Part shown: piece after piece, positions 14,295 through 33,633 of the stretch
How the letters are laid out: each line of letters begins with the position of its first letter
How positions within the stretch are numbered: position 1 is the stretch's first letter
Assembly: GCA_016788215.1 (NCBI GenBank)
Contig: JAEUSJ010000006.1
Span: 2,479 to 41,107 of the forward strand
From: a bacterium
GTDB lineage: Bacteria; CLD3; SB21
Direction of reading: 5' to 3'
Length of the DNA stretch: 38,629 bases
Made by a program: the position numbers and the translations under genes
The notes under the pieces: model-generated
Database searches by the model: none
What the model saw: only the letters and a program-made list of their open reading frames with translations
What the model was told of the DNA's origin: nothing

Positions 14295-15263
14295 ATGAAA
14301 AAATCACTCACTTTTACGCTTGCGATAGTTGCAAGCGTAATACTGTTGACAAGTTGTTCCGGTAAACCGGAATGGATTTATTTCAGTAATACCAAAGGTG
14401 ATAATATTTCCGCCATTTTGAATGAGAAAGACTTTGTTTGGTACGGTACGAAAAAAGGCTTGATCAAGTTTGATTATAAAAATGAGAAACGTCTCATGTA
14501 TAATGAAGCTTCCGGCCTTTCAGACGGCGACGTCAAATCGATCGTGACTGACAAGAATGGAATAAAATGGATCGGTACGGCGATCGGATTGAGCACATTT
14601 GATGGTACAGACATCTGGAATTCATACGATATTTCCAATCCCGGATTCCCATCCAACTTAATCAACGAGGTGACTATCGATGAGAAAGGTATCGTCTGGA
14701 TTGCATCCGGAGCCGGCGTAGGTCAATATGACGGAACAAACTGGAAAACGTACAATTCCACCAATGGCATTATGGATGCAATAGTAAATGCCGTCACTCA
14801 TGACGGCAAGGGAAAGATTTGGATAGGAACGGCGTCTACCGTGGAATGCTATGATGGACAAAAGTGGACGGCATACGATACTTCAAATTCCAAAACCACT
14901 TCGATGAATGTTCGCAACATACATGTTTCGAAAAAAGGTAATGTTTGGATCGGATCTTCACGCGGTTTGCTTAAATTTGACGGAACGAATTGGACCAACT
15001 ATACTTCGTCCAATTCCGGTCTGCCGGATAATATCGTTAAGGGATTTGCGATCGATGCCAATGACAATAAATGGATTGGAACTACTAAAGGTCTCGCAAA
15101 GTTTGACGGAACGAATTGGACGATTTATAATATCAACAATTCCAAGATTCCATCCGATCGTATCAATGCTGTAGCCGTCGATGACAACGGCAATATTTGG
15201 ATTGGAACTGAGGGAGACGGTTTGTGCGTGTTTAAAGAAGGCGGAGTAATCCTGGAAGAATAA
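14295..15263 (+). CDS. Seven-blade beta-propeller lipoprotein (two-component-regulator propeller repeats)
   Basis: This is a 322-residue secreted lipoprotein. The signal peptide ends in the lipobox LTSC with Cys21 as the lipidation site. The rest consists of seven repeats of about 42 residues with the pattern W..Y....SGLP...V..I..D..GN.WIGT..GL..FDG, the Reg_prop type. Seven repeats would close a complete propeller. In other bacteria these repeats form the sensor part of hybrid histidine kinases. Here the propeller stands alone with no kinase. A 20-base stretch is repeated exactly 126 bases apart (14976-14995 and 15102-15121), pointing to recent blade duplication. A strong AGGAGG site precedes the ATG. 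The ligand is unknown. Confidence 0.88.
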   Translation: MKKSLTFTLAIVASVILLTSCSGKPEWIYFSNTKGDNISAILNEKDFVWYGTKKGLIKFDYKNEKRLMYNEASGLSDGDVKSIVTDKNGIKWIGTAIGLSTFDGTDIWNSYDISNPGFPSNLINEVTIDEKGIVWIASGAGVGQYDGTNWKTYNSTNGIMDAIVNAVTHDGKGKIWIGTASTVECYDGQKWTAYDTSNSKTTSMNVRNIHVSKKGNVWIGSSRGLLKFDGTNWTNYTSSNSGLPDNIVKGFAIDANDNKWIGTTKGLAKFDGTNWTIYNINNSKIPSDRINAVAVDDNGNIWIGTEGDGLCVFKEGGVILEE

Positions 15264-21608: not shown

Positions 21609-21724
21609 CGATTTGATTAAATAAACGACTTATCATATCTGTCTTTTTCATGCTCGGTGGGCTGCTGTCAGACTCCATGAAAGTGTCTGTGTTTTCAACA
21701 CAAAACGAATCCTTGAGGCTATCT

Positions 21725-24553
21725 ATGCAAAAAACAAAAAACCCCGTCAATTGGATTTTCGCAATGTCCATGTTGATCGGGTTGGGACATATTTTCACAG
21801 CCAATACGGTTGCACAGAAATCGGATAAAGAAATTCGCAAAGAATACCGTACAAGCGTCAGTCAGTATATTCAAAGTCTTGATGAGAGTTTTGCATACCG
21901 TTATCTCGATAATGAAGTTATTTTGCTCGACCTGATATCAAGTATTCGCGGTGAATTCAAATTCCGTAAAGATAAAAAAGCGCTGAGGGCTTCATCCGAG
22001 TCCAAAATTATGCTGCCCATGTCGAGGGATTCCATACGTGTGAGATTGAAAACGATACGGGATAATTTAGATCTGATGAAGAAAAAGAACTATCTCATGC
22101 CGGGTTATACCAATCAGTCGGGGCTTAACGAACTCCATATGGAGTACCAAAGATTGTACGGAATGGACTATGAACTTACGCGTATCGAAGCTTTGGGGGT
22201 TCGTAACCATCTTCTAAAATCCGGTGAAAACGACCAGGTCAGAACATTGTTTGAGAGGCAATTACAACAAGCGTTTAAACGATTTAAAGAAGCCAGTTAT
22301 ACTGTTGCCGCTATAGAATTTCAGGACATCCTCACTACCTATAAGACTTATTTTACGGAACTGGATGACATTACATTTTATCTGGCCGAGAGTTATTTCC
22401 GCATGAAAGATTTCGGCAATGCTGAGGAAAATTATTATAAAGTCGTGACAGATTATCCGTCTTCTCCGTTTGTGGAAAGATGCCTTTTTAATCTGGTGGT
22501 GATGAATTATATCCAGACAGACCGGAACAGGATGCAGAAATATTTTGCGGAATTTGAGTCAAAAGTTACTCCCAATAATAAGAATGATCTGCGTTATAAT
22601 CAGCCCTTTTATCTGGCCGGTCTTACGCTTTTCAAAACATCCGATTATTCGGCATCTATTGCCATTCTGAAAAAAATTCCAAATACGTCCCGTTATTACT
22701 ATCCGGCTAAGTATGTTATGGGTCATGCCTATGCCAATTTGGAAACGTATCCTGAGGCGCTGGAACAATTTGAAGCGGTCGTCAAGCTGGAGGCAAATAA
22801 CCGGGGTTTCAGTGTTGAACTGCAGAAACAACTAAAGGACATTGCGCAACTGAAAATTGCATTTATCAAGTTTGAATTAACTACGAACGGGCAAAAACTC
22901 AAGACGGTCTATCCGTATGTGAAAAATATTCCTGCTGCGTCGAATGTCCACGATGCCGCTTTGCTTGTTTTATCCTGGTCAGCCTTAAAAGATAACGATA
23001 TCGACACCGCCCGTGTTTTTGTAGACTCATTATTACGCACCTATCCTGCGTCGGATTATTATTACGAAGCAAAAACATTACTTGGCAATATTCAGGTTTT
23101 GGATCCCACCTTGTCGGATAAAGATCGCGAACTATTGGCCGTGGACGCTTTCAACTATGTTGCCGGAGCAACGGAAGCTAAATATCTTGCGGATCAGTTT
23201 GTTTCGGAACGTGACTCTTCGCTCAAAGTTCTGGGCCAGTTGGGTGAAGCGCGGACGATTGCCCGTCTTCGAAATGACAGTCTGGCTTTTGTGAATTACG
23301 ACCGCCTATATGATAAACTGGCGAAGGCGACAACGAATAACGGCTTTATGAAAGCAATTACCGCTGATACGCGTTCCGCGGGCTATTATCAAACCATGTC
23401 AAATCTAATCAGTAAGATTAGAGTAGCCGAAGGGCAACTGAAGAATGCCGAAGAAACAAAAGACCAAAAAGAAATTAACAAACTGAACAAAGAGTTGTCA
23501 GGCTATTTGAATGAATTTCAAGCGATCGGGGGCGAAAAATTCTTAGATCAGGTGTACGCATCAGGCAAGGACTCTGTTAGCAGCGTGACTACCGACACGT
23601 ATGCCGATGTGGAAACGCAAAGTTATTTCTCATTGCACAAAGTTCCTCGTTCCATCAGTGAGATCGACGCCAGAAACAGGTCGCTGAACGCGCTGAAAGA
23701 TAAAATTTCCCGTGAGAAAGAACTCATTCAAAATCAATTGATCACCGTAGATAATATGATGGTGACCGCCAAAGAGAAGAATAAAGAATCTTCACTGATC
23801 AAGCTGCAATATGAAAGAAAAAAATTAGCCGATCTCTATTACCGGTTAAGTGATTATGAAGTGTTGCTCTATACGGAGGATCCGATTGAAAATTACGTCG
23901 ATCTGGACGTATGGGGTGATTTTGCCAGTTACGGACGTAATAACATAACATACGTAATCAATACAACTAAGAATGAAACGATTAAAGATCTAGCCCGCGC
24001 CGCGTCTCAGATCGACAAGATTCTGTTAACACGAAAAAAGAATTACGAGAGCCGCATTGCGGCGATCGAAGAAGAGATTAAGCTGAAGGAACAGGAAATC
24101 AGGGATAAAGAAATGCAGGAAATGCGTGTTTCTCAAAAACAATTCTTTGAGAAAGAATATTTTCAGGCTAAGGCTTCAGAAAAACCGGAAATTGATCCGT
24201 TTGATTATAAAGACCTTGTTCCTGATGTGGTCGTAATTCCTCAAGACACTTTACCTGCGGAGCCGGTCAATATTCCACAAGAGGATGAAGAAGCGACGGA
24301 AGAGCCTGCCGCAATCGACACGGCCGTTAAGAGCGGAACAGATGAAATGAATAATGAAATGCCGAGTGAAAAAATAGAGACAGACAGTACATCAAATAGC
24401 GGCGGGGGTGGACAGAACGACGAAGGAGAATTTTCGCTATTGCCGTTGTCTACGTTTGAAAATTTGTATGCCGCAGTATATGGGATAAACGGTATGACAG
24501 ACTTTAACTCTTCTTATCTAACACGCAATCAGAGTAGCTTAATAGAATCATAA
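21725..24553 (+). CDS. Large secreted TPR and coiled-coil protein
   Basis: This is a secreted protein of about 942 residues. I start it at the ATG at 21725, which has a TTGAGG site six bases upstream and gives a clean signal peptide (hydrophobic 9-27, cleavage likely after TVA before Gln). An ATG at 21650 would add 25 residues and bury the signal. The N-terminal two thirds hold TPR-like repeats (AIEFQDILTTYKTYF, AEENYYKVVTDYPSSPF, ALEQFEAVVKLE). Charged coiled-coil segments lie at about 562-600, 655-715 and 755-815. They are followed by an acidic, low-complexity tail from about 850. It is likely periplasmic or outer-membrane-associated scaffolding, perhaps analogous to GltE/AglT of Myxococcus. 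The stop overlaps the next start (TAATG). Confidence 0.8.
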   Translation: MQKTKNPVNWIFAMSMLIGLGHIFTANTVAQKSDKEIRKEYRTSVSQYIQSLDESFAYRYLDNEVILLDLISSIRGEFKFRKDKKALRASSESKIMLPMSRDSIRVRLKTIRDNLDLMKKKNYLMPGYTNQSGLNELHMEYQRLYGMDYELTRIEALGVRNHLLKSGENDQVRTLFERQLQQAFKRFKEASYTVAAIEFQDILTTYKTYFTELDDITFYLAESYFRMKDFGNAEENYYKVVTDYPSSPFVERCLFNLVVMNYIQTDRNRMQKYFAEFESKVTPNNKNDLRYNQPFYLAGLTLFKTSDYSASIAILKKIPNTSRYYYPAKYVMGHAYANLETYPEALEQFEAVVKLEANNRGFSVELQKQLKDIAQLKIAFIKFELTTNGQKLKTVYPYVKNIPAASNVHDAALLVLSWSALKDNDIDTARVFVDSLLRTYPASDYYYEAKTLLGNIQVLDPTLSDKDRELLAVDAFNYVAGATEAKYLADQFVSERDSSLKVLGQLGEARTIARLRNDSLAFVNYDRLYDKLAKATTNNGFMKAITADTRSAGYYQTMSNLISKIRVAEGQLKNAEETKDQKEINKLNKELSGYLNEFQAIGGEKFLDQVYASGKDSVSSVTTDTYADVETQSYFSLHKVPRSISEIDARNRSLNALKDKISREKELIQNQLITVDNMMVTAKEKNKESSLIKLQYERKKLADLYYRLSDYEVLLYTEDPIENYVDLDVWGDFASYGRNNITYVINTTKNETIKDLARAASQIDKILLTRKKNYESRIAAIEEEIKLKEQEIRDKEMQEMRVSQKQFFEKEYFQAKASEKPEIDPFDYKDLVPDVVVIPQDTLPAEPVNIPQEDEEATEEPAAIDTAVKSGTDEMNNEMPSEKIETDSTSNSGGGGQNDEGEFSLLPLSTFENLYAAVYGINGMTDFNSSYLTRNQSSLIES

Positions 24554-27500
24554 TGGGATATTTTATGAAAAAAGTGTTACATACTACCGTTCTTTTTCTA
24601 AGCGTATTCACGATGGGCGTTGTGTCCGGAGGTTTTCTCTTGGCTCAGGATCATGTGACAAAGCATTATGATTCATTAGCCCTGGAAAATGTTTCCAGTG
24701 AAGATTTATTGAAGCTGAAGGAAGATATCGAGGGACAAAAATCAAAATTGGAAACAGAGAGGCTGCAGTTATTGGATAAAGGCCTTAAACAAAGTAAAGA
24801 ATATCTTGAAAAAGTTAGTGTAAGCTCTACGTCAACCGCATTGGTTCTTTTACAGCGCGCCGAGTATTTATTATATTCATTGAACGACAATTTCCAAACC
24901 ATAGTTGATTCCATTTCCATTGAGAATGCCAAACGACTTGGAGAATGGGATCGCATGAGGGAAGAAAAACGTCAACAATGGATTGCGCAAGGCAAGAAAG
25001 ATAAGGAACTTGAAGAGTTGCTCGACGGTATTGAACCGCCCAACCAGTTTCCTGAACCGGAAATGGATTACTCCGACGTTTCAAAAACGTATCAGAAGCT
25101 GATAGAAAGTTATCCTGAGAGCCAGTATGTTGTCGATGCCATGTATAATATAGCGTATATTCGTGAACAGGAAGGCAATCAGTTACGAAGCCGCGCTTTG
25201 ACATTTCCTGAACAGGAAACACGGTGGAAACAAGAGTCAGAGAAAAAACTGCGTGAAGCTTTAAAAATTTATCAGGATTTAGCCATTCGTTTTCCGGATA
25301 GCAAATATGCGCCGGAAGCGTATAATCGTATTGCTGAATTCTATTTCGTCAGAGGAGGCGATGCCGATCTTGAGAGAGCGATCAAGAATTACAGCAAAGT
25401 TATGGACTATCCGACGGCAGAGCGATTTCCGGAAGCGGTTTATAAATTGGCATGGACGCACTACCGCTTGGGAAACTATCCTCAGGCCATCAGCTATTTT
25501 ACCTATTTGATAGACGATGTAGATTCGGCCAAGTACTATAATAATGAGACACAGGAATTGGATGTCGAAGCTTTGGTATATATCGGAATTAGTTTTAACC
25601 GTTGGGCAGAACAAATCGATTTGGCGCAAGGAACCAATGAAGGCGGCTATAGGTTGATCAAGTCGTACATCGACGAAGCTAAATTAAATGAAAAACGGTA
25701 TGCGCCTGAAATTATGTGGCAACTGGGCGAGTCTTATAATCTGGAACAGAAGGATACTTTGGCTTTATATGCCTATAAGAGTCTGGTCCAGAATTATCCG
25801 CAGTTTTGGAGAGCGCCGGATGCCCAATACAAAATTGTTTCCACTTATGACCGGTTGTCGCGTGCGGTTACCGACAAGGCTATCGCTAAAACATTATTAG
25901 ACAGCGTATTGGAGAATCGATACAAATTATATAACGCGTATAAGCCCAATTCCGATTGGTCGAAAGCTCAGGAGGACAAAGAGATTGTCGCAAAAGGCAA
26001 TCGAATGGCGCGCGACGTCTTGGTTGAAAATATCTACTATTTCTATGGGGAGGCGCAAGCGTCTAATGATCTCGGTGACTGGAAAATTGCGATGGATTTC
26101 AGCCGTGAATTCATAAAATATTTCCCTGTGGATACCAATGCATATTTTTTCCATTATAATCTTGCCTTCATTCAGTACCGGTTTTTTGGTCTATTGGATT
26201 CCGCTTATGAAGATTACGTCAAAGTTGCAACTCTATATCCGCAGGATTTATATCGGTACAACGCGGCTATGACGGCGTATACTATTGCGGATTCATTGTA
26301 CCGTAAGGCGCCATACAAAAAGCCGGTGAATGCACCGGCAGACAGCATCATTCCTCTGTCATCCGGGGAGGAGAATCTGATCGATGCCATCAACAGCTAT
26401 GCCCGTATTTTTTCCGATACCGTTACTCAATATCCGGTTGATTCCCTTCAAAATCTTAAACCCGTTATGGGTGTTCCAGGAAAGAAGACACCGGATTTTC
26501 TGGCCTATGCCGGGCAGATCTATTATAATCACAATAATTTCGGCAGATCAGGACAATATTTTAATACAATTGTTACGCGGTATCCGAACAGCGATAAGGC
26601 GCAGATCTCGCAGCAGTACCTGATGCAGACGTATTATGACCGTAAGGATTACCGAAGTTCGGAAATTGTTGCAAAACGACTGTTGGAAAGCACGGTTTCG
26701 AGTAAGGAGCAAAAGGAACAAGCAACAAACGTTATTTTCTATTCGATCTATAAACGCGGTGAAGATTTCCAAACCAACAAAGAGCCCGCCAAAGCTGCGC
26801 GCGAATTCCAGCGTGCATATGAGGAGGGTACCCGCATCGGCTATTCAAAACGGGACGACCGGGCTTTATCCCTTTTTAAATCGGGTATTGAATATAATAA
26901 TTCAAAGGAACTAAAGCGCTCAATTAGCGCCTATGAAATGTATGCCGATTCATTTCCTGACCTGAAAGATGCGCCGAACGCTTTATGGAACGTACAGGCA
27001 ACCTACGCCGATTTGAAAGAGATGAAGTCTGCTGCAAAGACAGCGGAACGGTTGGCGGACACCTATCCGAATTACTCCGTAAATAAAGGAGCCGTGACGG
27101 CTGAGATTGCCTTATATAATGCGGAATATTATGTGGAACAGGCTGCCAAACGTGCGAACGCGCAAGGGGATTCGACGGAAGGAAAAGCCATGAATACCGA
27201 GGCAATCCGTATCAGTGAAAAATTTGTCAAACGTTATCCAAAATCAGAATATGCTTCTACCATGGATTTTGGCGTAGCGAACCTATACTTTTTGATTGGC
27301 GATGAAGAACGAGCCTACCAAAAATACCGTCAGTTTGCCGCCACTTTTCCCAATGACAAACGCAATGTCCAATCGCTTTACGACGTGGGTATGAACCATC
27401 TCCGTAAAAATCGTCGTACGGAAGCCACCTCAGCATTCAGAGATGCCCTAAAGAAAAGCGATGATCTGAAAAAGATCAATCTGGACTTTAATAAATATTT

Positions 27501-29787
27501 CTCTTCGGAAGCTGCGTATGAATTGGCCCGGATGCGTTATGAGGACTTTGCAAAAATTCACCTGAAGGAACCCGGCGTAGAACACAAAGAAGAAATGAAA
27601 ATCTCGATTGTTAAAGAACTCATGACGTTATATGAGGCGGTGACGAGTTATGCGCAGATTCGTACTTATGAAGCTACCTACTATCGCGGTTTGGTCCGCG
27701 AAGAAGTCGGCGACGCTTTGGCCACCAAACAATTTCAGCAGGAAAAAGATCTGGTCAAGTATATCCAGGCTCAGAAAGATGCGTATTCCGTGGCATCCGG
27801 CGCCTATCGCGGCGCGGTTGAAGAATATAAGAACGCGTACGCTTTCTTAGACAAAGCCTATGAAAAATTTGCAGCAGACGAAAAGGAACTTCGGGATTCA
27901 ATTAACGCATTGTATCCAAACAGCGCCGATTCTGCACAGATGGTTTTCAAATGGACGTGGGAAGGAAAAACGGCTAAAGAAAAAGAGTTTTCCCTACAGC
28001 GCCAACAGCAGTTGGCTGTGCAATACCGCGATCTGGCACGATCCAAAATATCAAGAATTTTGTATGCGGTGGCTAACTCGAAGAAATTAATTTTAGATAC
28101 CTATTTGAGCGCGCCGCTTCCGAAAGAAATTCTGCCCGGAACGCTGGATTACATAAGTTATCAGCAGCAGATTCTGGTTAAAGCGGTTTTCCCGGCGGTA
28201 AACGATGCTATCCTTGCATTTGAAACCGCTGTCAGAGAAATGGACTCGCTGGGAATCAGCGACAAGTACACCAGCGAATGCCGTAGAAATATCGTACGTT
28301 TTACCGGCATAGTTCCTGGCGAATTGGCTAAGCTTTCGTTTATCACTATGCAGCTTTATACTCAAAACTCAGATCATTATCGCGAGGTCGTGGCCGGCGG
28401 AGAAAACTACATTGATAAGAAAACTGGAAAAGATTTCTATACGATTTTCTATGAAATTCCATTGGATATGAATACGTTCATTTCCCAATTTGCAAAACCT
28501 ATTGCTGAACAAGCCATTAAGACCTACGCCACAGCTGTCAAACAGGCGAAAGAAAAAAATCTTTTTGACGAGGATGCTCGGCAAATCCAAAGAGAAATGT
28601 TCGAATTTGCTTATCAGTTCGCCCGACTTAACTATCAGGAAGCAGATACTGCGGATAAATACTATAAAGGGTATGAAGCGGAATATTTCAAAAATCAGTC
28701 CGATGAAGCATTCCTGTATTATAGTGAAGCCAGCGCAACGTACAGTCAGGTTCTCAGTTTCGCCAGGGAAAATGCGCGCAGCCTTCTTGAAGAGGCATTC
28801 AATTCTGCAACGACACTGGAATTGGTTAAACTGAAACAAGATCCGAACGGCCTTGAAGGCGATAATATTGCGGTCACCAATGATCAGGGCACGAAAAGAA
28901 TTTTATCGTTGTTAGGTAAATACGATCAGTATTATGCGAAATTATTACAATTGAAATCTTTAACTCGCACCTATGCCTCTAATTATGATGACTGGCTTTC
29001 GAATAATAAATTTTTCGAATCATGGCAGACCCCGGCTTACAGCGATCTTGGTTGGTACAATGCCGCACCGCCGCCCAATACAGAAATTGCAGCGCACGCA
29101 ATTCTTGATACCAATTTTGCATATCCTCTGTGGATAGGATTGGGCCAATCGGTTGTTAAGCCTCCATTGCCGAAATACGTTCCTCCGATCATAGTAGAGC
29201 CTGTCGACACATCCATAACTGAAACATTGGCGGATTCAGCCGGAATAGCGCCTGTTATCACAGACTCTGCAGCGGTTGTTGATTCCAATGAAACTCAATC
29301 CTACATCCGTGGTGCACGATTAATCGGAGGTACATGGGTTCTGCAGGACACGTCAGTCAAGCCGGTATATACACAGGATATGATCAAGAGACAACTCGAT
29401 ACGGCAAAAATTGTTTATTTCCGTAAGTCATTTAATATAGCAGGCAACCCGCAGGAAGGAAAAATGTACATTGCAGCGGACGGCGAATATGACTTTTATC
29501 TCAACGGCGTCTTAATCGGATCGCAACAACAGGAAAACCCGGATGTGAAAGGCGATTCTCTTGATCTGCATTATCTCTTGCAAGAAAACTTTGTTCAGGG
29601 CACTAATATTCTGGCTATTGTATCAAAAGATTTAGAAACCCCCAAAGAACATTACGGTATACGTTTGTTTTTGGAGGTGAACGAAGTTGAAGATATTACA
29701 GCGCAATTTGCCGATCCGCCGCTGCCGCCGAACGACCAACTCAGAGAGTTGTTAATCCGCCGCGCACGTGTGGTTCGAAGCAGATAA
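24553..29787 (+). CDS. Giant secreted TPR protein with C-terminal carbohydrate-binding-like domain
   Basis: This is a protein of 1744 residues. The signal peptide (MKKVLHTTVLFLSVF..., cleavage likely after LLA before Gln) fits best from the ATG at 24565. The ATG at 24553 overlaps the upstream stop and is kept for translational coupling. Many TPR-like repeats fill the region to about residue 1000 (SKTYQKLIESYPESQYV, ALKIYQDLAIRFPDSKYAPEAYNRIAEFY, FNTIVTRYPNSDKAQ). Long helical segments follow. A beta-sandwich resembling the sugar-binding domain of GH2/GH78 enzymes lies at about 1595-1715 (YFRKSFNI, MYIAADGEYDFYLNGVLIG, LLQENFVQGTNILAIV). A possible first strand motif (FESWQTPAYSDLGWYNA) precedes it. 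It resembles GltI/AgmK in size and repeat type only. Confidence 0.82.
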   Translation: MGYFMKKVLHTTVLFLSVFTMGVVSGGFLLAQDHVTKHYDSLALENVSSEDLLKLKEDIEGQKSKLETERLQLLDKGLKQSKEYLEKVSVSSTSTALVLLQRAEYLLYSLNDNFQTIVDSISIENAKRLGEWDRMREEKRQQWIAQGKKDKELEELLDGIEPPNQFPEPEMDYSDVSKTYQKLIESYPESQYVVDAMYNIAYIREQEGNQLRSRALTFPEQETRWKQESEKKLREALKIYQDLAIRFPDSKYAPEAYNRIAEFYFVRGGDADLERAIKNYSKVMDYPTAERFPEAVYKLAWTHYRLGNYPQAISYFTYLIDDVDSAKYYNNETQELDVEALVYIGISFNRWAEQIDLAQGTNEGGYRLIKSYIDEAKLNEKRYAPEIMWQLGESYNLEQKDTLALYAYKSLVQNYPQFWRAPDAQYKIVSTYDRLSRAVTDKAIAKTLLDSVLENRYKLYNAYKPNSDWSKAQEDKEIVAKGNRMARDVLVENIYYFYGEAQASNDLGDWKIAMDFSREFIKYFPVDTNAYFFHYNLAFIQYRFFGLLDSAYEDYVKVATLYPQDLYRYNAAMTAYTIADSLYRKAPYKKPVNAPADSIIPLSSGEENLIDAINSYARIFSDTVTQYPVDSLQNLKPVMGVPGKKTPDFLAYAGQIYYNHNNFGRSGQYFNTIVTRYPNSDKAQISQQYLMQTYYDRKDYRSSEIVAKRLLESTVSSKEQKEQATNVIFYSIYKRGEDFQTNKEPAKAAREFQRAYEEGTRIGYSKRDDRALSLFKSGIEYNNSKELKRSISAYEMYADSFPDLKDAPNALWNVQATYADLKEMKSAAKTAERLADTYPNYSVNKGAVTAEIALYNAEYYVEQAAKRANAQGDSTEGKAMNTEAIRISEKFVKRYPKSEYASTMDFGVANLYFLIGDEERAYQKYRQFAATFPNDKRNVQSLYDVGMNHLRKNRRTEATSAFRDALKKSDDLKKINLDFNKYFSSEAAYELARMRYEDFAKIHLKEPGVEHKEEMKISIVKELMTLYEAVTSYAQIRTYEATYYRGLVREEVGDALATKQFQQEKDLVKYIQAQKDAYSVASGAYRGAVEEYKNAYAFLDKAYEKFAADEKELRDSINALYPNSADSAQMVFKWTWEGKTAKEKEFSLQRQQQLAVQYRDLARSKISRILYAVANSKKLILDTYLSAPLPKEILPGTLDYISYQQQILVKAVFPAVNDAILAFETAVREMDSLGISDKYTSECRRNIVRFTGIVPGELAKLSFITMQLYTQNSDHYREVVAGGENYIDKKTGKDFYTIFYEIPLDMNTFISQFAKPIAEQAIKTYATAVKQAKEKNLFDEDARQIQREMFEFAYQFARLNYQEADTADKYYKGYEAEYFKNQSDEAFLYYSEASATYSQVLSFARENARSLLEEAFNSATTLELVKLKQDPNGLEGDNIAVTNDQGTKRILSLLGKYDQYYAKLLQLKSLTRTYASNYDDWLSNNKFFESWQTPAYSDLGWYNAAPPPNTEIAAHAILDTNFAYPLWIGLGQSVVKPPLPKYVPPIIVEPVDTSITETLADSAGIAPVITDSAAVVDSNETQSYIRGARLIGGTWVLQDTSVKPVYTQDMIKRQLDTAKIVYFRKSFNIAGNPQEGKMYIAADGEYDFYLNGVLIGSQQQENPDVKGDSLDLHYLLQENFVQGTNILAIVSKDLETPKEHYGIRLFLEVNEVEDITAQFADPPLPPNDQLRELLIRRARVVRSR

Positions 29788-29800
29788 AAGGAGTGATAGT

Positions 29801-30286
29801 ATGAAAATATTTAAACTAACATGTGCAGGATTCATTGGATTGCTTCTGACGGGATTGGTCATGTCAGCGCAATCTTTTGCGCAGGAAGTCAAACATCCGG
29901 ACATGGATGTCGTAGAAGACGAAGCCGGTGAACAGGTGGTGATCGTCATTGCAACCGGCAATCCTCCTGATCCGAAATTATATACGGTAAAAGAAGAACA
30001 AGCCGGCGACAAGACCGTCATCGTGGTTTATTATAAGCCTACCGGTGAACAGATAAGCTTTTTTACTAAGTCCACCGTTAAAGGTAAAGTGGAAGGTCCC
30101 GGCGTTTCCTTATTTAACCGCCGTGTCGGGCCGGAAATCGAAAAAGTCGTAGGCCAGAAATCGTATGATAAGGAAATAAAACGGCGGTACCTCGACATGG
30201 TATTCATTGACAAAACTGAGTTTTTGAACACAGATAACGTTGATTTGAAAGAGATCGACAAGATCATAAAAAAACGGCGCAATTAA
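29801..30286 (+). CDS. Small secreted protein of unknown function in the envelope cluster
   Basis: This is a protein of 161 residues that I do not recognise. It has a signal peptide (KIFKLTCAGFIGLLLTGLVMS) with probable cleavage after SFA before Gln. The mature part is acidic at first (HPDMDVVEDEAGEQ), then beta-rich (VVIVIATG, KTVIVVYYKPTGEQISFF), and ends in a basic helix (EIDKIIKKRRN). A strong AAAGGAG site precedes the ATG at 29801, 13 bases after the giant TPR gene. Its fixed position between TPR proteins and the TolQ-like stator suggests a periplasmic accessory of the same machine. This is inference from location. Confidence 0.75.
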   Translation: MKIFKLTCAGFIGLLLTGLVMSAQSFAQEVKHPDMDVVEDEAGEQVVIVIATGNPPDPKLYTVKEEQAGDKTVIVVYYKPTGEQISFFTKSTVKGKVEGPGVSLFNRRVGPEIEKVVGQKSYDKEIKRRYLDMVFIDKTEFLNTDNVDLKEIDKIIKKRRN

Positions 30287-30342
30287 AGTCACTTTTTCCG
30301 GATTGTTTGAATCGCATCTTGATCTGAGGCCAATAAAAAAAC

Positions 30343-30370
30343 TTGCATTTAAATAAATAGTATGTATATT
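30343..30370 (+). promoter_or_regulatory. Predicted promoter of the TolQ-ExbD-AgmX genes
   Basis: TTGCAT at 30343-30348 and TATATT at 30365-30370 are 16 bases apart. The predicted start near 30377 leaves a leader of about 130 bases. This suggests the stator genes can be transcribed apart from the TPR genes, at a different level. Confidence 0.5.
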
Positions 30371-30406
30371 AATTGCGTTAGTTTTCACTTCATTCAAGCC
30401 TGCATA

Positions 30407-30426
30407 TCGGAAGTAATTAATTCCGA
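30407..30426 (+). promoter_or_regulatory. Inverted repeat in the leader of the TolQ-like gene
   Basis: TCGGAA (30407-30412) and TTCCGA (30421-30426) are a perfect six-base inverted repeat around an AT-rich eight-base centre. It could be an operator or a leader hairpin. A second small palindrome, TTCATT-C-AATGAA at 30474-30486, lies just before the AGGAGG ribosome site and could affect translation. Confidence 0.3.
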
Positions 30427-30507
30427 CATAAACAGTTCGTAAGATTATTATAGTTAGAATAATATCAAATAGATTCATTCAATGAACTTAAACAGGAGGT
30501 TTGTTTC

Positions 30508-31302
30508 ATGAAAAAGAGTATTGAAAAAGTTATGGGTTTGGCACTGGTCGTGCTGATGAATGTAACCATGTTATTTTCGACCAACGCTTTGTTTGCACAG
30601 GAACCGGCAGCAGGTGAAGTGCAGATGTCAGGAACGGCTATATTCTTTCAGAAATTTTTCCAGAGTTTTAAATGGTCTGAAGACGCAAGTTCCTATATGT
30701 GGATCATCGCCTTTTGCGCCGTTTTCGCTGTTGCTATGATATCCGAACGACTCTATTTTATATTTGTTCGCTCCAATGTTGACGCCAACAAATTTATGGC
30801 CGAAATTCGCAAGCTGGTTGCCGGCGGTAATTTGAAAAAAGCGATTGCTCTTTGTGAAACAGCAAAAGATAAGGCGTTGCCATCGGTAGTATTAGCCGGT
30901 TTGAAAAGAGCCGTTGAAAAAGAAGGCGGGCCTCTTGATTTCCGCGCCATTCAGAATGCCGTTGACGAAGGTACGTTGGAAATTATTCCCAAGCTAACTG
31001 AACGATCAGGTTACATTGCCATGCTTAGTAACGTCTCGACGCTCTTCGGTCTGATGGGTACTGTGTATGGTCTTATTATTTCATTTGCCGCGGTCGCTAA
31101 TCCATCACTCCCTGAAGATCAAAAAGCACTGTTACTCGCAGGCGGTATCTCGGCAGCTATGCAGACGACTATTTGGGGTCTTTCCGTTGCTATTCCTTGT
31201 ATCATTGCTTACACGATCATCACTACGAAGACCACCAAAATTATTGATGAAATGGATGAGCACATGGTAAAACTGATCAACTTAATGACCGGAAACAGAT
31301 AA
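30508..31302 (+). CDS. MotA/TolQ/ExbB-family proton channel protein
   Basis: This is a 264-residue inner-membrane protein of the TolQ/ExbB/MotA family, the pentameric part of proton-driven stators. Membrane helices lie at about 64-86, 170-193 and 213-238. The conserved signature SNVSTLFGLMGTVYGLI has the Thr that lines the proton path, and GGISAAMQTTIWGLSVAIPCIIAY follows. An extra N-terminal hydrophobic stretch (8-31) looks like a cleavable signal peptide ending LFA before Gln, which is absent from E. coli TolQ. A strong AGGAGG site precedes the ATG. It is followed by two ExbD genes, as in the AglR-AglQ-AglS motor set of Myxococcus. Confidence 0.92.
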   Translation: MKKSIEKVMGLALVVLMNVTMLFSTNALFAQEPAAGEVQMSGTAIFFQKFFQSFKWSEDASSYMWIIAFCAVFAVAMISERLYFIFVRSNVDANKFMAEIRKLVAGGNLKKAIALCETAKDKALPSVVLAGLKRAVEKEGGPLDFRAIQNAVDEGTLEIIPKLTERSGYIAMLSNVSTLFGLMGTVYGLIISFAAVANPSLPEDQKALLLAGGISAAMQTTIWGLSVAIPCIIAYTIITTKTTKIIDEMDEHMVKLINLMTGNR

Positions 31303-31389
31303 TTTTCATAGTTTTTCGTAAGTGATTATTGTTTTGATTTCCACATAAGTATGAATTAAAGAAGCTGATCAAAAGATAAAGGTGAAATT

Positions 31390-31968
31390 ATGGCATTTAA
31401 ACCATCTGCTCGAAGAAGCATAAAAGTTGAAAGTACGGAGCTTGATCTTCGACCCATCATGAATATGATGTGTATTTTGATCCCCTTGCTCCTTAGCTGT
31501 TCCCAATTTGTTAAGAACAGCTGGCTTGAACTGAATCTTCCTCCTGTCGGAGGGGGATCTTCATCAAGTTCAGAAGATAAACAAGATAAACCCAAAGAAG
31601 AGCCCCGGAAAGTCGGATTGAAGCTTGTCATTACAGAGAAGGGGTTTACTATAGCCGGTAACACGGTTGTATTAAGCGGCGCTGCCGGCGGCGGGCCTAC
31701 GCTGCCGAAGCTGTCTGACGGTAAATATGATTTTGAGGGTCTGGATCAGAAACTAAAAGACGCAGTAAAAGCGATCGGCGGAAAAGGTTTTGAAGACGAA
31801 CGTGTGATCATTATTACAGCCGAAGACGTCATCGAATACCAAACCATTGTGACCACAATGGATATTATTGGCGCCTCGGCAGTTAAAGAGCTGCAAGATC
31901 CGGATACTAAAAAGATTGTCAAACAGCCGTGGTTTATTAATATCGGTGTTGGCAAGATCGTGTTATAA
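31390..31968 (+). CDS. ExbD/TolR-family protein, first copy (Asn at the proton-Asp position)
   Basis: This is a 192-residue protein with a short cytoplasmic start, one membrane helix (about 22-40) and a periplasmic domain. It belongs to the ExbD/TolR family by layout, neighbours and alignment of ELDLRPIMNMMCILIPLLLS to the E. coli ExbD segment EINVTPFIDVMLVLLIIFM. In that alignment the essential proton-carrying Asp is Asn25 here. The helix also contains Cys28, Pro32 and Cys37. A Gly/Ser-rich linker (54-62) precedes the periplasmic domain. It starts with MAFKPSA exactly like the next gene, which indicates a tandem duplication. It probably forms a heterodimer with that protein inside the TolQ-like ring. 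Confidence 0.85.
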   Translation: MAFKPSARRSIKVESTELDLRPIMNMMCILIPLLLSCSQFVKNSWLELNLPPVGGGSSSSSEDKQDKPKEEPRKVGLKLVITEKGFTIAGNTVVLSGAAGGGPTLPKLSDGKYDFEGLDQKLKDAVKAIGGKGFEDERVIIITAEDVIEYQTIVTTMDIIGASAVKELQDPDTKKIVKQPWFINIGVGKIVL

Positions 31969-31990
31969 TTTTTTAGAAAAGGAAAAAACA

Positions 31991-32503
31991 ATGGCATTCA
32001 AACCATCAGCGGCAAAGAAAAACAGAGGTAAAGAAGAGGGAACTCTTAATATGAATTCCATGATGGACATTCTTACCATCATGTTGCTCTTTTTGCTTAT
32101 GAGTTTCAGTACCGAAGGTTCGCTGGCGACCAAATCAGACGGACTTACGCCTCCGAAAGTTTTGACAAAACAGAAACCGAAGAAGGTCTTAGCAATAAAT
32201 GTATCCACAATCCATCTTTTTTTCAAGAAAGACGCCATCGTAGATGTCGACAAAATAATCGCCCAGAAAAACAGTTTCGTTATACAGGAGTTAGCTGATA
32301 AATTGGATGAAGAGGCGTCAAGGGCAATTGAGTTGGAATCTAAATTCGGCATCGAATTCAAGCGCGAGTTGGTTATAGTTGGCGATTCAAGATTGCCGTT
32401 TAACGTCTTACTCAAAGTGATTATAACGTGCGGACGTAACGGTTTTGCTAATCTACGGCTCTTGGGCAATTTGTCCAACAAAGCCGATGTGCTCGGGATT
32501 TGA
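31991..32503 (+). CDS. ExbD/TolR-family protein, second copy (conserved Asp present)
   Basis: This is a 170-residue ExbD/TolR-type stator subunit with one membrane helix (about 24-40). The segment LNMNSMMDILTIMLLFLLMSF carries Asp26 at the position of the essential proton-carrying Asp of ExbD and TolR. The periplasmic part follows from about residue 45. I start it at the ATG at 31991, behind AGAAAAGGA, 22 bases after the first ExbD gene. Upstream in-frame codons would run back into that gene. The shared MAFKPSA start and matching DNA at the 5' ends show the two copies come from one ancestor. This copy should supply proton coupling. Confidence 0.9.
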   Translation: MAFKPSAAKKNRGKEEGTLNMNSMMDILTIMLLFLLMSFSTEGSLATKSDGLTPPKVLTKQKPKKVLAINVSTIHLFFKKDAIVDVDKIIAQKNSFVIQELADKLDEEASRAIELESKFGIEFKRELVIVGDSRLPFNVLLKVIITCGRNGFANLRLLGNLSNKADVLGI

Positions 32504-32577
32504 TGTTTTTACTATCGAAACGAAGAGATGAAATAGTGTTAGATTATACGGACGTATGATCTTTTAAGGAGGTTTCA

Positions 32578-33633
32578 ATGAATCCGTTAGAGAACAACAA
32601 GAATTTACACGCCAGCGCTGCGCCTCCGGGAGGCAGAGCCTCTGCCGGCGCGCGGGAGATCAGGATTGTTTCTTTCCCGAAAGAGTTCCATAAGAATTAT
32701 TGGGCGTCTTTCGATAAGAAGATACTCGTGATCTGGTTTGCTTCTTTGGTGATTGTGTATACGCCACTGCTTTACATGGCTGCGCAACCCAAGCCTCCGG
32801 TGAGCACTGTCATTTCGGACAGGCTCTTAAAGAAAATCGGCGTTATCAATAAGATCGATCCGAAACTTCTCGAAGAAATTGATAAACCCAAAGAAGAAGA
32901 AAAAACAGAAACAAGCACCGCAACAGGGCCGGCAACTGCTATAAAAGCTCCGACGGGTAACGTAGGTAAAGCTGGACGTGCAGCGGCGGCAAAGGCAGCA
33001 GCAGCGGCTCGCGCAGGGAAAGCAGCAGGAAAAGCGGCAGGTAAAGGTGTTTTAGCCGTTGCGGGAGCATCGGGAACCGGTTCTTCGGGAAAATATGCTT
33101 CAGTTGATTTCAGCGGTTCTTCCAGCGGTTTGGATGACGTTTTAGGACAGATTGGCGGTCTAGGTGAAGCTGGCGGCGGCGGCAGTGATCGAACAGTTTT
33201 AGGTGCCGGCGGCGGCGTTGGCGGTGAGGGCGGTCTTGGCGATCTTACCGCATTATTAGGCGATCCGGGCGGCTTGTCTGTATCGGCCGGAGAATCGGGC
33301 GGCGGTCTTATCGGCGTCGGTAAAGCGTCTATTGCCGGCGGTGCTGGTGCCGGAGCTTCTGCGGGCGAGATTCAGTCCGTAATTGATGCAAATGCAGCTG
33401 CGGTGAACTCATGCTACCAAAAAGAATTGAAGAAATCTCCTGATCTTAAAGGCAAGTTAAGCGTTGCGATCAAAGTGAATCAGGCAGGACGTGTTGCAGG
33501 TGTCAATGTTACCCAAAACACCGTCGGTAATGCAGTATCATCTTGCGTTACCAATAAGATTCGCGGATGGAGTTTCCCAAAAGGCAAAAAAGGCGTGATA
33601 ACGATCAACCAGACCTTTGTGTTTACGAAGTAA
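32578..33633 (+). CDS. TonB/TolA-like transducer with AgmX/PglI-type C-terminal domain
   Basis: This is a 351-residue protein with one inner-membrane helix (about 49-67) after a cytoplasmic N-terminus of 48 residues. Then comes an acidic-Lys stretch (EEIDKPKEEEK), a Lys/Ala/Arg-rich segment likely to be helical (about 129-158, like TolA domain II), and a Gly-rich linker (about 164-262). The C-terminal domain (265-351) has CYQKELKKSPDLKGKLSVAIKV and CVTNKIRGWSFPKGKKG, the AgmX/PglI C-terminal pattern. It contains two Cys (279 and 323) that could form a disulfide. It probably transmits motion from the TolQ-ExbD stator to the outer envelope. An AGGAGG site precedes the ATG, and a strong terminator follows. 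Confidence 0.85.
   Translation: MNPLENNKNLHASAAPPGGRASAGAREIRIVSFPKEFHKNYWASFDKKILVIWFASLVIVYTPLLYMAAQPKPPVSTVISDRLLKKIGVINKIDPKLLEEIDKPKEEEKTETSTATGPATAIKAPTGNVGKAGRAAAAKAAAAARAGKAAGKAAGKGVLAVAGASGTGSSGKYASVDFSGSSSGLDDVLGQIGGLGEAGGGGSDRTVLGAGGGVGGEGGLGDLTALLGDPGGLSVSAGESGGGLIGVGKASIAGGAGAGASAGEIQSVIDANAAAVNSCYQKELKKSPDLKGKLSVAIKVNQAGRVAGVNVTQNTVGNAVSSCVTNKIRGWSFPKGKKGVITINQTFVFTK

Follow-up and report, generated by a model that had tools for sequence, protein, structure and literature searches.

Sequence analysis of a window of 38,629 nucleotides and of the genomes related to it indicates that the Q-rule, by which signal peptidase I (SPase I) sites carry Gln at position +1, very probably operates in the organism from which this stretch of DNA comes. 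The phylum of the window comprises nine genomes in the taxonomy used and Calditrichota genomes fall outside it; in that taxonomy it therefore belongs to neither Bacteroidota nor Calditrichota. The rule itself is known, with a mean Q-value of 71% in Bacteroidetes by SignalP, and high Q-values were described as a feature of Bacteroidetes and 'not the entire FCB group', most Chlorobi being low and other bacteria forming a continuum from 2% to 77% (PMC5837995). It has also been called exclusive to Bacteroidetes, with a protective role established for P. gingivalis (PMC10653852), and the published position ties it to the proteolytic lifestyle of Bacteroidetes. A search of the open-access literature revealed no report of the Q-rule for Calditrichota or their relatives, and what we describe here is thus a known rule in lineages for which we found no earlier description.

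The starting point was a preliminary description that had listed four SPase I sites in one gene cluster of the window, all with Gln at +1. We re-examined them with a home-made caller that rates leaders only by n-region charge, hydrophobic core and the residues at −3 and −1, ignoring +1 (Q-blind caller; for the counts outside the window a stricter version replaced an earlier, looser one, whose false leaders and anchors weakened the signal). At its working cut-off, the window contains exactly four non-lipoprotein Sec leaders, and the remaining exported candidates (at 14295 and 35784) are lipobox proteins. The Gln codons are present in all four genes (Table 1), and for both TPR proteins and the small secreted protein the Q-blind caller cut before this Gln (TVA|Q, LLA|Q and SFA|Q). 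Its preferred site in the TolQ-like protein was TNA|LFAQ, three residues upstream of LFA|Q; we assign the site to LFA|Q because the orthologs from genomes G008, G005 and G006 favour it. The G008 ortholog reads TNTLFA|QEP, with Thr replacing the −1 Ala of the TNA alternative, those of G005 and G006 read SLFA|QDG and ALYA|QDA, and that of G004 alone departs. The observation of four sites with +1 Gln therefore stood, for three sites by Q-blind calling and for the fourth through its orthologs, and with Gln making up 3.4% of the proteome such a run would have a chance probability of about 1e-6.

Table 1 Features of the gene cluster in the window (positions count from the first letter of the window)
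Feature	Position	Strand	Details
TPR protein 1, 942 aa	21725..24553	+	Pfam TPR_14/TPR_6; ATG at 21725
Signal peptide, TPR protein 1 (MQKTKNPVNWIFAMSMLIGLGHIFTANTVA), TVA|Q	21725..21814	+	Gln codon 21815-21817; Q-blind call
TPR protein 2, 1744 aa	24553..29787	+	Pfam TPR_6 1e-20; start at 24553 or 24565
Signal peptide, TPR protein 2, LLA|Q	24565..24645	+	Gln codon 24646-24648; Q-blind call
Small secreted protein, 161 aa, without known family	29801..30286	+	
Signal peptide, small secreted protein, SFA|Q	29801..29881	+	Gln codon 29882-29884; Q-blind call
TolQ/ExbB-like protein	30508..31302	+	Pfam MotA_ExbB 1e-20
Signal-peptide extension, TolQ-like protein, LFA|Q	30508..30597	+	Gln codon 30598-30600; site from orthologs
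TolR/ExbD-like protein 1, without cleavable leader (context)	31390..31968	+	Pfam ExbD
TolR/ExbD-like protein 2, without cleavable leader (context)	31988..32503	+	Pfam ExbD
TonB-like protein, C-terminal AgmX/PglI domain (context)	32578..33633	+	NF033768, 81 bits, above cut-off

The genes form an operon (21725-33633) for two large TPR proteins, a small secreted protein, a TolQ-like protein, two TolR-like proteins and a protein with an AgmX/PglI tail, which resembles parts of the myxobacterial Glt/Agl motor; Calditrichota carry related loci. The mechanical open reading frame of TPR protein 1 opens at 21650, its ATG start being taken at 21725, and the protein is 93–97% identical in same-genus genomes. 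The TolQ-like protein matched TIGR02796 (tolQ) at 1.9e-17, under the cut-off of the model. Its cleavable signal peptide occurs only in the family of the window, the orthologs from the sister family and from Calditrichota starting at the TolQ core.

Comparison of orthologs revealed that the Gln is widely kept. TPR protein 1 retains the site as TFA|Q in G007, AVA|Q in G008, GTA|Q in G005 and LHA|Q in G004, and TPR protein 2 has +1 Gln in G007, G008, G005, G004, G003 and G002 and in most Calditrichota orthologs. For the small secreted protein, the caller set +1 at Gln in 20 of the 24 distinct orthologs, which come from the phylum of the window and Calditrichota, and the other four could be cut before a Gln within a few residues. 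The mature N-termini of this protein no longer align, the similarity to Calditrichota beginning approximately 70–100 residues in, and a lone residue kept amid such drifting surroundings is the pattern to be expected from selection on the mature N-terminus. A like pattern, with the Gln kept, was seen in most orthologs of TPR protein 2.

Besides the window itself we sampled approximately 340 kb of other contigs of its genome (G000, a MAG of 621 contigs, 94% complete and 8.75% contaminated), 800 kb of the same-genus genome G007 (3% contamination) and 340 kb of G001 (1%), a class-level relative from another family. The genome-wide count of +1 residues, proposed as a check in the preliminary description, revealed an excess of Gln: outside the window, 19 of 35 G000 leaders called by the Q-blind caller have it at +1 (54%, compared with 5.7% at +2 to +10; p=4e-15), absolute fractions here and below being rough, because some non-leaders and misplaced sites still pass the caller, which does not affect the excess. 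The same caller gave 17 of 37 leaders in G001 and 29 of 87 in G007 (33%, or 40% after a filter that removes Rossmann-type and low-scoring leader calls), and we attribute the lower G007 fraction to Rossmann folds, anchors and wrongly placed sites that the home-made caller let through. In each of the three genomes the excess gave p < 1e-13, the reference being whichever Gln frequency was higher, that of the neighbouring positions or that of the proteome; Gln at +2 to +10 amounts to 3.9–5.9% in these genomes and to 3–11% when the Calditrichota samples are included. Filtering of the G000 set left 24 leaders, 16 of which (67%) have +1 Gln strictly and 19 if the cut may move by a few residues, and the same motif placed ten residues downstream was found in none of the 24. 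Irrespective of site placement, Gln is the residue after 46% of c-region Ala in G000, compared with 3.3% of the Ala elsewhere in these proteins. Only four proteins lay behind the first observation, which coincidence or a peculiarity of a single operon could in principle explain; with the excess recurring outside the window and in relatives, we give that reading practically no weight.

Leaders from Calditrichota behaved alike under the Q-blind caller (+1 Gln in 12 of 21 for G011 and in 21 of 34 for other loci), as did the few sampled from Zixibacteria/LCP-89 loci (5 of 9). The control genomes showed no such excess: +1 Gln was called in 1 of 20 leaders of E. coli K-12, where the sites that the caller set for TolB, ModA, OmpC and ecotin agree with the known ones, in 2 of 16 leaders of Planctomycetota and in none of 11 from two Deltaproteobacteria MAGs. 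One departure from the Gln rule is shared between genomes, in that Gly recurs at +1 of carboxypeptidase-regulatory-domain proteins (A|GVTGKLSGRV or A|GTTGKISG...; L081:18439-19707, L172:5872-8343, L189:11949-15131 and L125:10199-13147, in genomes G007, G010, G014 and G001); the two checked against Pfam are of the TonB-dependent receptor type.

A glutaminyl cyclase (QC) gene, for which the preliminary description had suggested a search, was found in G000 outside the window. Among seven M28 matches one is PgQC-like (G000:C166:675-1601, identical to L046:675-1601); a profile search of G000 gave no type I QC (PF05096), an enzyme of the same chemistry and an unrelated beta-propeller fold. We identified the PgQC-like protein by its PDB matches and active-site residues because NCBIfam gave nothing above cut-off; its best PDB matches are 3gux, TfQC 6qro, 4fuu, 3tc8 and PgQC 6qql (1e-62 to 4e-43). 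All nine phylum genomes have a single PgQC-type enzyme of this kind, with one weak second match in G001, and in the QC tree the family of the window forms one well-supported group. The contamination of G000 raises the question of whether Bacteroidota contigs in the MAG supplied the signal; given the same result in the cleaner G007 and G001, and a QC that is 94–96% identical across same-genus genomes and present throughout the phylum, we consider this very improbable.

In PgQC numbering (PMC7948796), the zinc ligands Asp149, Asp183 and His299, the catalytic Glu182 and the entrance loop Arg128, Pro129 and Asp132 are kept in all FCB-side QCs examined, as in PgQC and TfQC (6QQL, 6QRO). Asp183, a zinc ligand described as specific to bacteroidal QCs, is present in 19 of 19 FCB-side enzymes, and Glu takes its place only in Planctomycetota relatives. 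The QC of the window's family further shares with PgQC and TfQC a lipoprotein leader (lipobox LTSC|A in G000, a lipid anchor predicted from sequence only), whereas the QCs of G001, G002 and two Calditrichota have an SPase I leader ending in A|Q and no lipobox. Unlike PgQC and TfQC, the enzyme of the window's family has Tyr for PgTrp193, lacks the loop with PgPhe294 and has His for PgTrp298, so that the Phe294/Trp298 substrate-binding pair is not kept. The change to His was seen in all seven genomes of this family and in no other relative examined, Trp298 being kept in the QCs of Calditrichota, Zixibacteria/LCP-89, G001 and G002.

Taken as a whole, we consider it likely that SPase I would cut Sec-exported proteins directly before Gln, that the PgQC-like type II QC at the cytoplasmic membrane would cyclise the +1 Gln to pyroglutamate, and that pyroglutamate would shield proteins of the periplasm, of the outer membrane and of type IX secretion from aminopeptidases; cleavage at the called sites, cyclisation and the protective role are steps that we infer. 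Alternatively, +1 Gln might reflect a substrate preference of the SPase I or translocon of the lineage, the M28-like enzyme being an aminopeptidase and no pyroglutamate being formed. The His at PgTrp298, a residue reported as conserved in type II QCs (PMC7948796), would suit this alternative, as would Gln excess in genomes without a QC. Among 14 genomes of the Calditrichota clade tested, ten have a type II QC and one (G029) a type I QC, and no convincing QC of either type was found in the Calditrichota assemblies G010, G014 and G028. The idea that QC-less Calditrichota assemblies would be without +1 Gln failed, as G010 and G014, the two of them sampled for it, still have an excess (6/12 and 13/31); QC presence and the Q-rule are thus not perfectly linked in Calditrichota, unless the QC-less MAGs are incomplete. 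Against a mere substrate preference, however, stand the retention of Asp183, with Glu confined to Planctomycetota, and of Arg128, Pro129 and Asp132, as well as G029, whose type I QC takes the place of type II as would be expected if cyclisation were needed, and on this evidence we regard the alternative as improbable. The G029 enzyme (PF05096, 1e-92; L209:1405-2229) itself has a leader ending in TLLA|Q, and this genome has no type II QC.

The system resembles that of Bacteroidetes in that approximately half to two thirds of the called SPase I leaders in the window's lineage expose +1 Gln and that a cyclase of PgQC type accompanies T9SS sorting domains. The latter were found in all nine phylum genomes and in seven of seven Calditrichota tested, and were absent from the Deltaproteobacteria and Planctomycetota control genomes; Planctomycetota carry a related enzyme and lack the Q-rule. 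The suggestion that a Bacteroidota-like rule operates here was supported by the genome-wide excess together with the cyclase and the sorting domains. The system differs from that of Bacteroidetes in that the lineage is not Bacteroidota in the taxonomy used and has Calditrichota as neighbours; the rule, published as restricted to Bacteroidetes, is seen here in the nine-genome phylum and in Calditrichota loci.

The preliminary description had also taken the rule as support for an FCB affiliation, and this held in part. The sampled distribution of the rule, shared with Calditrichota, Zixibacteria and LCP-89 and absent from Planctomycetota, the Deltaproteobacteria MAGs and E. coli, fits an FCB-side placement, but the rule has been called Bacteroidetes-specific rather than FCB-wide (PMC5837995). 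Better evidence for this placement comes from the TolQ-like protein, whose closest named relatives are Calditrichota, near-identical or misnamed MAGs aside. The TolQ-like tree joins the window's lineage and Calditrichota (98/94, long branches), with the class-level relatives G001 and G002 falling outside. A MAG contig labelled 'Bacteroidetes bacterium' (L002, HKST-UBA01, that is, G006) groups in the family of the window, and its label looks wrong.

The joint occurrence of +1 Gln, QC and T9SS sorting domains near Calditrichota suggests an older, FCB-side origin of the rule. A stronger version, which we put forward tentatively and hold to be rather doubtful, is that the Q-rule predates Bacteroidota and belongs to a wider FCB clade that takes in Calditrichota, Zixibacteria-like lineages and the phylum of the window, and that in some Calditrichota it persists without a recognisable QC or with type I in place of type II. 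If so, selection for +1 Gln would be independent of any one enzyme, and an unrecognised cyclase may exist. The assemblies with a QC, without one and with a swapped one provide the material to test what the rule depends on.
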